DNA of 12,147 nt from an uncultured Bacilli bacterium. GTDB lineage: Bacteria > Bacillota_I > Bacilli_A > RF39 > UBA660. The DNA lies in NCBI GenBank assembly GCA_947627965.1, contig CANQYA010000018.1:1-12147 (forward strand). Reading direction: 5' to 3'. Numbering within the stretch: the stretch's first letter is position 1; every line of letters starts with the position of its first letter. Below the pieces are notes generated by a model. The model was not told the DNA's origin and made no database searches. It saw only the letters and a program-made list of their open reading frames with translations. Position numbers and translations under genes: made by a program. Positions 1,691-5,351 of this stretch are shown here, one piece after another.

Positions 1691-1714
1691 ATGCTCATAT
1701 TTTATTATATTAAT

Positions 1715-1723
1715 ATTATAACA
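1715..1723 (-). promoter_or_regulatory. Extended -10 promoter for DUF1538
   Basis: On the minus strand TGT-TATAAT forms a TG-N extended -10 element, about 87 bases before the DUF1538 ATG. There is no good -35 at 16-18 bases, which is tolerated with an extended -10. The transcript would carry the 16-bp repeat array in its leader. Confidence 0.45.
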
Positions 1724-1751
1724 CGTTGGAACAATAATAAAATATTAATTT

Positions 1752-1786
1752 AAAAAAAAGCTATCAATCTTACTTGATAACTTTTT
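1752..1786 (-). terminator. Intrinsic terminator of the csoR-like gene
   Basis: On the minus strand GTTATCAA-GTAAGA-TTGATAGC gives an 8-bp stem with one G-U pair and a 6-base loop, followed by eight T. An A-run precedes the stem, so it might also work weakly in the other direction. It lies about 10 bases after the stop codon of the csoR-like gene and separates it from DUF1538. Confidence 0.8.
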
Positions 1787-1795
1787 TAGGAATTT

Positions 1796-2068
1796 TTAAT
1801 CGATACGAGTAAACAAAGTAATTATTTCGTCGACGGTTTCTAAATTACCATTTTTTAACTCCTCTACTACTTTATTAGATAAGTGATCTCTAATAATTGT
1901 TTTACTAAATCCTTTTAAGGAATTAATAATAGCAGATATTTGAATTAGAATATCGTCACAATCTCTCTCGTCAGTAATCATTTGTTTTATTCCTCTAACT
2001 TGTCCTTCGATACGACTAAGTCTTGTGTTTAATTCCTGTCTTCTTTGATTGTCATCTACTTTTTCCAT
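1796..2068 (-). CDS. CsoR/FrmR-family (DUF156) repressor
   Basis: A 90-residue all-helical repressor of the CsoR/RcnR/FrmR/CstR family, which senses copper, nickel or cobalt, formaldehyde, or sulfane sulfur through a few Cys and His residues. Family hallmarks are R-L-x-R-I-E-G-Q-V-R-G-I at 16-27, Cys37, and H-L at 62-63. The usual copper sensor has Cys-His-Cys; here Cys37 and His62 are present but the third position is Lys66 (H-L-S-N-K-V instead of H-L-x-x-C-V), and there is no second cysteine. It is therefore unlikely to be an ordinary copper sensor; the effector is unknown. The start at 2068 is chosen because AGGAGG lies 4 bases upstream, while an ATG at 2116 would put the promoter and ribosome binding site inside the gene. 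It has its own terminator and no linked copper ATPase or sulfurtransferase in the window. Confidence 0.88.
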   Translation of the reverse strand: MEKVDDNQRRQELNTRLSRIEGQVRGIKQMITDERDCDDILIQISAIINSLKGFSKTIIRDHLSNKVVEELKNGNLETVDEIITLFTRID

Positions 2069-2086
2069 ATTTCCTCCTATATCTTC

Positions 2087-2116
2087 ATTATATACCCCTT
2101 CTAAGTATATGGTCAA
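2087..2116 (-). promoter_or_regulatory. csoR promoter with an operator-like inverted repeat inside it
   Basis: On the minus strand a -35 TTGACC (2116-2111) and a -10 TATAAT (2092-2087) are 18 bases apart. The spacer and edge of the -10 hold the inverted repeat ATATAC-N9-GTATAT (2090-2110) with a GGGG run next to the right arm. A-T-rich arms around a G/C-tract are the known operator style of the CsoR family, and the position would block RNA polymerase. Autoregulation is inferred. Confidence 0.7.
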
Positions 2117-2270
2117 ATATTATATAAATATTTTATTTGGTAAATTTTGGGAATTATTAAATATTTACTAAAAAAATGCATATAAATTACTGTTTTTGTT
2201 TTATTAATACATTTTTTATAACTAAATAATTATTAATAAATTATATTAATTGTCAAAAAAAGGAAAATAA

Positions 2271-2825
2271 TTATATATATAATCCTTCTCCTTTTTTATC
2301 CTCATTATTTTTTAATTCGTATTTTTTCACACATACTGCTTTATTTAATTTAAGACTTTGTGGTACATCAATAATTCGTTGATTAGTCGATCCCCTAAAA
2401 TGGGCATTTAAACTTTTCTTTTCTAAGACAAACCTACCGTCAACTAATACGTCTAGTTCATTTAATAATTCGAGCATTTTAGGATTTTTTTCGGCTATTT
2501 TTAATAACTGTTCAAAAGTATACCCTGTATAACACCATACATTTAATCCTAGTTGATGGCAATATTTAGCAATATCGAGTGATGGTTCAACTTGAAACAT
2601 GGGATCCCCACCTGATAAAGTAATACCATTAACTAATTTTAATTCACTTATACCTTTTTTTATATCCTCAGTATCGGCAATAAATCCGCCATTAAAATCA
2701 TGGGTTTGAGGATTATGGCATCCTTTGCAATTGTGACTGCACCCTTGCATCCAAACAACTGCTCTTATTCCTTCACCGTCAACTATACTATCAGCTTGTA
2801 GGTTGCTAGCAAGTCTTACTTTCAT
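2271..2825 (-). CDS. nrdG: Anaerobic ribonucleoside-triphosphate reductase activating protein
   Basis: A 184-residue radical SAM activase. It uses a [4Fe-4S] cluster and S-adenosylmethionine to place the glycyl radical on NrdD, the class III ribonucleotide reductase. The cluster-binding motif C-x3-C-x2-C is C29, C33, C36 in G-C-S-H-N-C-K-G-C-H-N-P. The SAM-binding G-G-D-P lies at 72-75. The N-terminal D-S-I-V-D-G-E-G-I-R is also typical, and the length is close to the family norm with a slightly long charged C-terminus. The ATG follows the stop of the 62-codon glycyl-radical ORF by 5 bases and has no clear ribosome binding site, so it is probably translated by reinitiation. It is the last gene of the nrdD operon. 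No good intrinsic terminator is visible after it. Confidence 0.95.
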   Translation of the reverse strand: MKVRLASNLQADSIVDGEGIRAVVWMQGCSHNCKGCHNPQTHDFNGGFIADTEDIKKGISELKLVNGITLSGGDPMFQVEPSLDIAKYCHQLGLNVWCYTGYTFEQLLKIAEKNPKMLELLNELDVLVDGRFVLEKKSLNAHFRGSTNQRIIDVPQSLKLNKAVCVKKYELKNNEDKKGEGLYI

Positions 2826-2830
2826 AAGAT

Positions 2831-3019
2831 TTAATTACTGCAAGAACAAATACCAGTAGTATCGTGTTTTACACGATCGTGTTCTTCTGCACGTTTACTG
2901 TCGTTAAATCTATCAACTGTACCAACTAAATATCCTGTTATACGACGAATTCTTTCAAATCCAACTCCTTCTCCAACTTGTTTTCCTACTGCTTTTCTTT
3001 CTTCTTCGATTTTTTCCAT
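2831..3019 (-). CDS. Detached glycyl-radical domain of anaerobic ribonucleotide reductase
   Basis: A 62-residue protein that matches only the C-terminal end of NrdD: F-E-R-I-R-R-I-T-G-Y-L-V-G-T at 21-34, then D-R-F-N-D-S-K-R-A-E-E-H-D-R-V-K-H up to residue 52. In complete NrdD proteins the glycine of R-(V/I)-(T/C)-G-Y-L carries the stable radical made by NrdG; here this is G29. The main nrdD ORF upstream ends without this segment. The ORF has its own ribosome binding site (AGAGGTG, about 6 bases before ATG), starts 16 bases after the nrdD stop and ends 5 bases before nrdG. It ends in I-C-S-C-S-N (C58, C60). It may act like GrcA/YfiD, the small glycyl-radical subunit that restores pyruvate formate-lyase, but as a permanent partner. 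A split by recent mutation or assembly error is also possible. Confidence 0.85.
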   Translation of the reverse strand: MEKIEEERKAVGKQVGEGVGFERIRRITGYLVGTVDRFNDSKRAEEHDRVKHDTTGICSCSN

Positions 3020-3078
3020 AATTACACCTCTTTCTTTATTTATTACAATCGCAAATCAAATTTGTGATTTTTTCCATA
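3008..3078. repeat. 13-bp direct repeat spanning the nrdD split
   Basis: GATTTTTTCCATA occurs on the plus strand at 3008-3020 and again at 3066-3078, 58 bases apart. On the coding strand both copies read T-ATGGAAAAAATC and encode M-E-K-I: internal residues 759-762 of NrdD in one case, the start of the 62-codon ORF in the other. Loss of one 58-bp unit would put NrdD in frame with the glycyl-radical segment. The repeat is A-rich and is also a plausible gene start, so chance is not excluded. Confidence 0.75.
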
Positions 3079-5351
3079 CTAACTGATTCTCCTTCACGAC
3101 GTCCACATTTTGGACATACATCGTGAATAATACCAACATATCCACAAACAGGATCCCTATCGACAGGGTGATTTATTGCTCCATAACCAATACCTTCTTT
3201 TTCCATAAGACGAATAATACTCTCAAAAGCCTCTAAATTCTCAGTTGGATCACCATCTAATTCAATATAAGAAATATGTCCAGCATTAGTTAAAGCATGA
3301 TACGGAGCTTCCAAATGAATTTTTCTTGCTACACTTATATTGTAATATACTGGAATATGGAATGAATTGGTATAGTAAGCTCTATCGGTTACACCTTTAA
3401 TTTTTCCATATACCGCTTTATCAATATTAGTAAATCTTCCTGATAATCCCTCAGCTGGTGTTGCTAAACAAGTAAAATTCAAATTATATTTATCACTATA
3501 TTCGTCACATTTATCACGAATAAACTTTATAATTTTTAATCCTAATTCTTGAGCTTCCTCACTTTCGCCATGATGTTTACCAATTAAAGCTTTCAAACAT
3601 TCTGCAAGTCCTATAAAACCGATACTTAAGGTTCCATGTTTTAATACTTTACGCAATTTATCGTCAGGTTTTAACTTTTCAGAATCTAACCAAACACCTT
3701 GTCCTAATAAGAATGGGAAGTTATAAGCATGTCTACTGCATTGTATTTCAAAACGATCTAACAATTGGTCTTTTACAAGCTCGACAAGTTCTCCTAATTC
3801 TTCAAAGAAACCATCAATATCAGGTTTATCTCTACCATTTACTATTCCATGTTTAATACCTAATCTTGGTAAGTTAATAGAAGTAAATGATAAATTACCA
3901 CGCCCTGGTGTTACAGCTTTATCAGGATCGACATGATTTCCTAAAACCCTAGTTCGGCAACCCATATAACCAACTTCCGTTGTAAAATCTCCTTCTTTAT
4001 AATATTGTTTATTAAATGGAGCATCGATAAAAGAAAAGTTAGGGAATAATCTTTTAGCAGATACTTTGCATGATAATTTAAATAAATCATAGTTAGGATC
4101 TCCTGGATTAAAGTTTACCCCTTCTTTTACTTTAAATATTGAAATTGGGAAGATAGGTGTTTCACTATGTCCTAATCCTGCATCAACTGCTTTTAAGTAA
4201 TTTTCAATAACCATTCTTCCTTCACTTGATGTATCAGTACCAAAGTTAATAGATGAGAATGGTACTTGAGCTCCTGCTCTTGAATGCATTGTATTTAAGT
4301 TATGAACAAAAGCCTCCATAGCTTGATAAGTAATACGATTAGTCTTTTTTAAAGCTTTATCATATGACATTTCAAATAATCTTTTAACTTCGCTAGAATC
4401 TTTAAAGAATTTATCGAAGCAATTTATATCTAAATCAATACTATCTAATTTATCTATTTCCTTTATAACACTATTAAAATTAACGAATTTACCAAAATCA
4501 CTATAATCTAATAAATCAGATAAAGTTTGTTTAAATTGTTTTCTAAATGTTTTTAATACTCCTGGTGCTAGATAATAGTCAAAAGCAGGAATACTTTGAC
4601 CACCATGTTGATCGTTTTGGTTTGACTGAATAGCAATAGCTGCTAAAGCAGAATATGACATAATGTCTTGTGGTTCGCGTAAATGTCCATGTCCTGTTGA
4701 AAAACCATTTTTAAATAATTTTTCCAAATCAATTTGCATACAAGTTGTCGTTCCCATTGGTAGGAAATCCATATCGTGAATATGAATATCACCTTCGTCG
4801 TGAGCATCAGCATATTTTTTCTTCATTAAATAAGCTTTAGCAAATTCTTTTGATACCGTTGATCCATATTGTAACATTGTACCCATGGCTGTATCACCGT
4901 CAACGTTAGCATTTTCTCTTTTAGTATCGTCTTCGTGAGCTGACTTCAATCCAAGTCCTTCCAAAGTTTTTAAAAATTTATGCATTTTTTTATCGTCGAA
5001 AAACATAGCTCGTGATTGATTTCTTCTTTCGCGATAATCAGAAAATGATTGATATACATCTTGATAACCTTTTCTTTTTAATTCGTCTTCGATAATATCT
5101 TGAATTTCTTCAATTTTTATTTTTTCTTCATCTTTATAGTCTTTTTCAATACGTTTAATAACAGCTTGATATACTTTTTGAATATCTTTTTCATTATAAG
5201 TAGGTACTTCTTCTTCCGAATTAGTATCGTGTTCGACATTATCGAAACCTTTTTTAATAGCCATTGCTATTTTAGTACCATTAAAATCAACTTTCTTACC
5301 ATTTCTTTTAACTACTTTTAAGTTTTCCAAAAGTTCTTCACTTGTAACCAT
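3036..5351 (-). CDS. nrdD: Anaerobic ribonucleoside-triphosphate reductase, lacking its glycyl-radical end
   Basis: A 771-residue class III ribonucleotide reductase large subunit, which makes deoxynucleotides without oxygen. An ATP-cone allosteric domain covers about 12-110 (V-V-K-R-N-G-K-K-V-D-F start). The catalytic barrel follows, with C204 in T-T-T-C-M-Q-I-D-L and C465 in Y-M-G-C-R-T-R-V-L-G-N as the likely active-site cysteines by comparison with T4 NrdD. Near the end, R-D-P-V-C-G-Y-V-G and C-P-K-C-G-R-R-E-G-E (C736, C746, C749) represent the zinc site, with D733 where a first cysteine is often found. The protein then stops after I-C-D-C-N-K (C767, C769); the R-I-T-G-Y-L glycyl-radical segment is missing and is encoded by the next ORF. 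GGAGG lies 9 bases before the chosen ATG. It forms an operon with the radical ORF and nrdG. Confidence 0.95.
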   Translation of the reverse strand: MVTSEELLENLKVVKRNGKKVDFNGTKIAMAIKKGFDNVEHDTNSEEEVPTYNEKDIQKVYQAVIKRIEKDYKDEEKIKIEEIQDIIEDELKRKGYQDVYQSFSDYRERRNQSRAMFFDDKKMHKFLKTLEGLGLKSAHEDDTKRENANVDGDTAMGTMLQYGSTVSKEFAKAYLMKKKYADAHDEGDIHIHDMDFLPMGTTTCMQIDLEKLFKNGFSTGHGHLREPQDIMSYSALAAIAIQSNQNDQHGGQSIPAFDYYLAPGVLKTFRKQFKQTLSDLLDYSDFGKFVNFNSVIKEIDKLDSIDLDINCFDKFFKDSSEVKRLFEMSYDKALKKTNRITYQAMEAFVHNLNTMHSRAGAQVPFSSINFGTDTSSEGRMVIENYLKAVDAGLGHSETPIFPISIFKVKEGVNFNPGDPNYDLFKLSCKVSAKRLFPNFSFIDAPFNKQYYKEGDFTTEVGYMGCRTRVLGNHVDPDKAVTPGRGNLSFTSINLPRLGIKHGIVNGRDKPDIDGFFEELGELVELVKDQLLDRFEIQCSRHAYNFPFLLGQGVWLDSEKLKPDDKLRKVLKHGTLSIGFIGLAECLKALIGKHHGESEEAQELGLKIIKFIRDKCDEYSDKYNLNFTCLATPAEGLSGRFTNIDKAVYGKIKGVTDRAYYTNSFHIPVYYNISVARKIHLEAPYHALTNAGHISYIELDGDPTENLEAFESIIRLMEKEGIGYGAINHPVDRDPVCGYVGIIHDVCPKCGRREGESVSMEKITNLICDCNK

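Follow-up and report, generated by a model that had tools for sequence, protein, structure and literature searches.

A class III ribonucleotide reductase predicted to carry its radical glycine on a separate 62-residue protein in uncultured Bacilli

Can a ribonucleotide reductase keep its active site on one polypeptide and its radical glycine on another? To our knowledge, the radical glycine of all solved glycyl radical enzymes is on the catalytic chain, and GrcA is an optional repair part. The question is raised by a stretch of 12,147 nucleotides from an uncultured Bacilli bacterium (contig CANQYA010000018.1 of assembly GCA_947627965.1, GC 26%; hereafter, the window), the minus strand of which carries a trio of genes for a body of NrdD, the class III (anaerobic) ribonucleotide reductase, a 62-residue open reading frame (ORF), and NrdG. 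From the sequence comparisons described below, it is very likely that the first two products together form a functional class III reductase, best read as an obligate pair of chains from which the radical subunit can detach.

The body matches the Pfam ATP-cone (1.1e-15) and positions 1–532 of the NRDD profile (4.6e-190). The small ORF matches positions 533–562 of the latter (3.1e-7, above the gathering score) without overlap; the full NRDD domain, i.e., barrel and radical end, is covered only by the two chains together. The NCBIfam profile PRK07111 is cut at nearly the same place (body 3–715 and small ORF 711–744, of 746), and in the alignment to the solved NrdD of Prevotella copri (PcNrdD, PDB 8p23) the body corresponds to residues 9–708 and the small ORF to residues 707–738. 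As read from the sequence, the cut passes through the radical domain: the cysteine site stays with the body, and the glycyl loop and tail go to the small chain. The radical glycine is thus located not in the chain of the active site but on a separate ORF. The body terminates in ...DPVCGYVGIIHDVCPKCGRREGESVSMEKITNLICDCNK, while the small ORF contains ...GEGVGFERIRRITGYLVGTVDRFNDSKRAEEHDRVKH...; its ATG, preceded by AGAGGTG, lies 16 nucleotides after the body stop, and the two ORFs occupy different frames. A first-pass annotation of this DNA had described an NrdD with the ATP cone, the catalytic cysteines and the CPKC site that ends before the glycyl segment, and had placed this segment in an ORF with its own ribosome-binding site between nrdD and nrdG. 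Pfam, PRK07111 and the 8p23 alignment confirm the former description, and the coordinates, frames and AGAGGTG site confirm the latter.

The residues expected of a working enzyme are retained. Cys204 and Cys465 of the body, which we take by homology to be the active-site and the thiyl radical cysteine, respectively, are identical in all 98 split and all 33 fused rows of the alignment, as are Asn486 and Cys736. The MGCR finger loop is present in 95/95 split bodies. The TTTC pattern around Cys204 matched just 53 of the 95, as the neighboring residues vary, although the alignment gives a cysteine in 98/98. Cys736, Cys746 and Cys749 likely form a structural metal site, by homology to PcNrdD. A loose pattern, [VI][PSND]x[ED], recurs in the tails of all 95 split bodies. 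Since TGYL, the motif of the putative radical glycine, belonged to the patterns with which the small ORFs were found, viral ones included, its presence in them is partly by construction. An AlphaFold model of the body alone shows a confident barrel (mean predicted local distance difference test score (pLDDT) of 81, with blocks up to 98), and its best fold matches are the P. copri NrdD chains; the last residues are poorly defined (pLDDT blocks of 54 and 38).

The split is not peculiar to the window. When genome contigs were scanned for matches to the body, 558 relatives were obtained, of which the best 80 were kept by similarity to the split body, so that the counts are not frequencies and some species appear twice; 39 further loci came from genomes of the same order, and all 119 were classified by script. 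The contig-scan loci comprised 75 split and 5 fused genes with none unclassified, and the order loci 24 split, 8 fused and 7 unmatched by pattern, i.e., 99 split, 13 fused and 7 unclassified overall. The search for the small ORF beside truncated nrdD genes in relatives, proposed with the first description, therefore found the split kept in 99/119 loci from many independent assemblies, among them Candidatus Pelethosoma (L049) and Candidatus Coprovivens (L066). The gene immediately after the small ORF is nrdG in 85/95 split loci. Among 194 order genomes, all at least 90% complete except that of the window, 183 have an NRDD match and at least 58 have a body match that ends at 530–539 (50 genomes) or has a stop inside it (8 genomes); the small ORF was looked up, and confirmed, for all but six of these. 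In 121 genomes from other families of the class, 83 of which have an NRDD match, no body ending near 530–539 was accompanied by an adjoining radical match; three divergent bodies stop at 545–546, and a few are fragmented. In the class of a Clostridia relative (98 genomes, 91 with NRDD), no such split pair was present among the matches listed. In cells, the adjacent split thus seems to be confined to a single lineage of Bacilli, most of them uncultured.

For 56 genomes, taken mainly for showing the split, of which 52 have it by our count, other reductases were sought. No other long NRDD match was found in 44/52 (E up to 1, leaving aside some short matches that were weak), and eight have one (G076, G147, G129, G119, G069, G134, G047 and G175). 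The class I/II domain PF02867 was detected at an E-value of 0.01 in none of the 56, in contrast to 11 of 14 control genomes, and also in none of the 50 genomes behind contig-scan loci, 45 of them split. One genome (G111), a single contig of 1.26 Mb, has the split pair alone as reductase, and no other long NRDD match was found in the window's own genome, which is 67.65% complete. A second intact nrdD elsewhere, which would have spoken for decay of this one, is accordingly missing from most of these genomes. The split pair is probably the only reductase; since cells must make deoxyribonucleoside triphosphates, unless they live on salvage, and no other reductase was detected, it is very probably active.

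Radical proteins without an adjacent body were found as well. Stand-alone matches in frames of 92–108 residues occur in 7 of the 121 other class genomes, six of which also encode a full-length NRDD; no NRDD match was found in the seventh (G258). Six of the seven chromosomal forms are proteins of 90–98 residues in which some 55 residues precede the radical segment, and the last (L153) was masked in the script by an overlapping ORF. In a search with the chromosomal form, 7986 of 8000 scored candidates were related, some of them, from Ruminococcus, named anaerobic ribonucleoside-triphosphate reductase. The N-terminal domain of the 95-residue proteins is modeled as beta-alpha-beta-beta (mean pLDDT 71); no fold match at E ≤ 0.001 was obtained, and ribosome-hibernation-factor chains among the top rows (E above 0.2) are only a lead. 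In two loci of one genus, L155 (G311) and L157 (G258), desulfoferrodoxin (superoxide reductase) lies directly upstream, a placement that suggests a role in oxygen stress. L240, a locus of the Clostridia set, has a complete nrdD followed by a stand-alone radical gene and then nrdG, possibly an intermediate between a spare part and a split. In G215, a body without glycyl loop runs straight into nrdG (L158); the only stand-alone radical match found (L156) is more than 1 Mb away, and a one-piece NrdD is also present.

These proteins raise the strongest alternative, namely that the radical protein serves mainly as a replacement for the end of NrdD damaged by oxygen, while the body next to it stays permanently in a cleaved-like form. 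It agrees with the coexistence of stand-alone proteins and full NrdD in six of the seven genomes, with the neighboring desulfoferrodoxin, with the gene order of L240, and with the precedent of GrcA/YfiD and T4 Y06I in the available portion of PMC8683613. However, 44/52 split genomes have no intact NrdD that such a spare could serve, and the link to oxygen comes from two of the seven loci, both in one genus and one in a genome where no NrdD was found. We regard this alternative as a serious contender whose chances fall somewhat short of even.

Phages and prophages hold many more such proteins. With the 62-residue query, 7979/8000 scored candidates were related; in this search and in that with the chromosomal form, candidate lengths were bounded to 0.55–1.75 times that of the query, and many are from short contigs and may be fragments. 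Where the small radical proteins have a name, it is hypothetical protein or simply anaerobic ribonucleoside-triphosphate reductase. Three split genomes (G136, G187 and G175) have extra, prophage-borne copies away from nrdD. In IMG/VR, 224 of 244 stretches were relatives and 80 were kept, of which 50, mostly longer contigs, were searched whole, although the records may be fragments: 46 carry a stand-alone radical protein without NrdD body, two a one-piece NrdD and two a split NrdD. L208 is a third viral split besides L170 and L173, the last of which has its radical ORF ahead of the body. One terminase profile matched in 20/50 of these contigs, and a PHROG match was obtained for 15 of 20 chosen neighbors, among them endolysins, DNA methyltransferases, an exonuclease and phosphoadenosine phosphosulfate (PAPS) reductases. 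The lead-in G-x-[GN]-x(1,2)-FERIRR is found in 66 of 76 short viral ORFs, and a start with a ribosome-binding-like site in 58, 48 of which would encode 41–65 residues (the choice of start leans short). In OP172808, an isolated phage of Eggerthella lenta, the nrdD product likewise lacks the glycyl loop at its end, and the small radical ORF downstream is interrupted in the record. Separately, a 162-residue ORF (P0151) joins a deaminase domain (PF00383) to the radical segment; its contig has 1074 bases, and the fusion may be an artefact.

Judged by these matches, free NrdD radical proteins make up a wider family that extends over phages and gut Firmicutes, with members that are probably spare parts, the NrdD equivalent of GrcA/YfiD. 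The parallel with GrcA, already drawn in the first-pass annotation, gains strength from the stand-alone NrdD radical proteins encoded by phages and on chromosomes, where those of one genus follow superoxide reductase. The odds seem evenly balanced that they all represent a shared pool of detachable class III radical cartridges, in which gut bacteria of the present lineage would have an obligate two-chain NrdD with its radical part replaced after oxygen damage, other Firmicutes would keep a spare, and phages would bring a cartridge of their own, many of about 45–60 residues, to keep or commandeer the host reductase in infection. The gene for the small radical protein is also a candidate phage metabolic gene.

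Translation might instead join the two frames of a split locus and yield a single normal NrdD, through a programmed frameshift, readthrough or bypass. The spacer is short, and the pieces share a frame in 37 of the 99 split loci. However, their relative frames are random (37/33/29), which speaks against frameshift or readthrough as a general rule, and both were rejected as such. Furthermore, 98/99 split loci have an in-frame ATG for the small ORF, all 98 with a preceding purine-rich site (a loose pattern with no background control), and 46/50 viral contigs encode the small protein with no body to be joined to. Joining at translation is thus very unlikely. A decaying gene, i.e., a truncated pseudogene and a leftover 3′ piece, is suggested by the lack of the radical glycine, without which the body would be dead alone. 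Both pieces, in contrast, are under purifying selection: the median ratio of nonsynonymous to synonymous substitution rates (dN/dS) is 0.137 for the radical core (2810 pairs) and 0.147 for the 66-residue C-terminal segment of the body (514 pairs, 40 loci), and 95 distinct small ORFs keep a core of 37 residues. Together with the invariant catalytic residues and the scarcity of any other reductase noted above, these values make decay highly improbable. Finally, although the window is a contig of a fragmented genome and its two ORFs are in different frames, a base error that artificially broke one nrdD is practically excluded by the recurrence of the split across assemblies, with an extra body tail and a new N-terminus of the small ORF, and by distances from the stop to the first in-frame ATG of −17 to 49 nucleotides over the 99 split loci, which are not reducible to one base.

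Table 1. Positions of the features discussed, in the window and in other loci.
Feature	Locus	Positions	Strand	Remarks
NrdD body, 771 residues	Window	3036..5351	-	Carries ATP-cone, barrel, Cys of active site and finger loop, and C-terminal Cys site, but lacks radical glycine; from profile matches and AlphaFold model
Stand-alone glycyl-radical protein, 62 residues	Window	2831..3019	-	Profile and alignment matches; 37-residue core kept in 95/95 split loci
NrdG, radical S-adenosylmethionine activase, 184 residues	Window	2271..2825	-	TIGR02491 6e-45, above cut-off
Ribosome-binding-site-like AAGAGGTG	Window	3025..3032	-	Ahead of small ORF; read from sequence
Cys204 of body (TTTCMQ), presumed active-site Cys	Window	4740..4742	-	C in 98/98 split and 33/33 fused rows
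Cys465 of body, finger loop MGCR	Window	3957..3959	-	C in 98/98 split and 33/33 fused rows
Cys736, Cys746, Cys749 (DPVC...CPKC)	Window	3105..3146	-	Kept with body; pattern in 95/95 split bodies
Body tail GRREGESVSMEKITNLICDCNK	Window	3039..3104	-	Resembles segment leading into glycyl loop of one-piece NrdD; low pLDDT
GEGVGFERIRR lead-in motif of 62-residue protein	Window	2942..2974	-	Common to viral stand-alone proteins
Putative radical glycine Gly29 of 62-residue protein (TGYL)	Window	2933..2935	-	Aligns to PcNrdD glycyl loop; in 95/95 split loci (motif part of search pattern)
Metal-sensitive repressor family protein (PF02583)	Window	1796-2116		Adjoins nrd genes
Stand-alone radical protein, 94 residues	L155	2736-3385		After desulfoferrodoxin; Crp-type regulator near
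Stand-alone radical protein, 90 residues	L157	3372-4053		After desulfoferrodoxin
Extra radical-protein copy	L122	3820-4068		Beside weak terminase-small match and invertase
Extra radical-protein copy	L123	3895-4068		Beside weak terminase-small match and RusA
Extra radical-protein copy	L124	3869-4159		Near tail gene
Phage nrdD, 952 residues	L243 (OP172808)	1697-5048		Intein-like insert in finger loop (our reading)

To approach the origin of the split, 132 bodies were cut back to the part ahead of the trait and placed in a tree with FastTree, which gives local support only. The split label requires 6 changes as against 30.3 in shuffles (0 of 500 shuffles as low), and 92 of the 98 split rows fall in one group of 94 (support 88). 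Outside it are L103, with L109, L011, and the viral bodies L173 and, together, L170 and L208. In 63/95 loci, the body tail resembles the lead-in of the small protein more than shuffled tails do, at 0.05 or below. The segment before the glycyl loop is arranged as if present twice, as would follow from a tandem duplication or from the arrival of a stand-alone protein and later loss of the body's own end. The split probably came about once a stand-alone radical protein, whether duplicated or incoming, had made the C-terminus of the body dispensable.

A mechanism can be proposed from the one-piece structures. The separate stop, the small ORF's own ribosome-binding site and the independence of frame show that the body and the small protein are translated separately, with nrdG next in line and presumably on one shared message. 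The small protein would then dock with its loop entering the barrel beside Cys465, NrdG would generate the glycyl radical on Gly29, either in the small protein alone or in the docked pair, and the radical would move to Cys465 and drive reduction. The reductant is perhaps formate, because the finger loop is MGCR, a type tied to formate use in Escherichia coli (PMC9669993). The scheme is plausible, since the radical domain of one-piece NrdD becomes mobile and undetectable with dATP, according to the available text of PMC11226230, and since GrcA/YfiD restores cleaved pyruvate formate-lyase (PFL). With the radical part on a cheap separate chain, an oxygen-cleaved copy could be exchanged without losing the body.

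The one-piece NrdD enzymes of P. copri (8p23), T4 (1h78) and Streptococcus thermophilus (9d3x) share the barrel fold and sequence with the window's body, and the glycyl loop of 8p23, RITGYLVGT, is common to the small protein. Unlike them, the window has its radical glycine on a separate 62-residue chain, and a GEGV.FERI-like segment on both sides of the cut. The class II reductase of Pseudomonas aeruginosa is reportedly also split, likewise a ribonucleotide reductase in two chains; class II enzymes are B12-dependent and have no glycyl radical. If the present pair is indeed an obligate two-chain glycyl radical enzyme, radical loading and unloading could be studied by mixing subunits.

GrcA/YfiD and T4 Y06I are closer in concept, each being a small autonomous glycyl-radical protein that serves a body without radical end; in the accessible portion of PMC8683613, they are the only validated spare parts, and spare parts for glycyl radical enzymes other than PFL are considered possible, a question that the present pair makes testable. 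However, the small ORF matches only NRDD (PF13597, E up to 1) and not Gly_radical (PF01228), is about half the size of GrcA, and is the only NrdD radical source found in most split genomes rather than a spare, the full-length parent enzyme being absent from the same cell in the 44/52 genomes without another long NRDD. Phage nrdD genes in pieces have been reported as well (PMC3653736, PMC12363816 and PMC2988022), but in the portions of these reports available the pieces are associated with inteins, endonucleases and group I introns or with breaks that go unexplained, and no stand-alone glycyl-radical protein is mentioned. In the open-access full text of PMC, we found no stand-alone NrdD glycyl-radical protein or split at this place; subscription papers and curated databases of ribonucleotide reductases lie outside that scope, and an earlier notice is possible.

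Several observations weigh against an obligate two-chain reductase of the kind proposed. In 10 of the 95 split loci, nrdG is absent from the fetched stretch. The split genomes of the contig-scan loci carry titles of metagenome-assembled genomes, and those of the order are 90–97% complete, compared with the lower value given above for the window's genome. In the tree, two fused rows nest inside the split group of 94, and the deep branches are weakly supported, so that one origin with re-fusion, several origins or transfer are indistinguishable. In 22/52 split genomes, G111 included, no PFL-like enzyme with a strong, full-length PF01228 match is present, which renders formate as the reductant uncertain. 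Lastly, the only congener searched (G073) is without the split pair. An uninterrupted nrdD in a related strain had been named at the outset as an argument against the split, and this genome supplies one in a loose sense; yet its NrdD, of 798 residues, is distant (102.7 bits) and of another subtype.

As for PF01228 itself, 30/52 split genomes, that of the window included, have a strong match in one chain (E 1.4e-35 or better, frames of 740–783 residues), which is probably PFL, and no short PF01228 protein is present among the matches listed for the 52. Because this enzyme is in one piece there, splitting does not appear to be a general habit of glycyl radical enzymes in these genomes.

A few features of neighboring or related genes were also recorded. 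A C-terminal extension of NrdG, considered as an adaptation specific to the split, was rejected, as near fused relatives have one too. The 798-codon NrdD of the other subtype in L149 (G236) and L126 (G073) continues beyond the radical segment, in our reading, with a glutaredoxin-like C-terminal extension. Near the full NrdD in L126 there is an NrdD-like ORF of about 643–675 residues, as also in the rows G097, G152, G008, G013, G015 and G017; its NRDD match stops before the radical end, and it may represent a second subunit or a paralogue.

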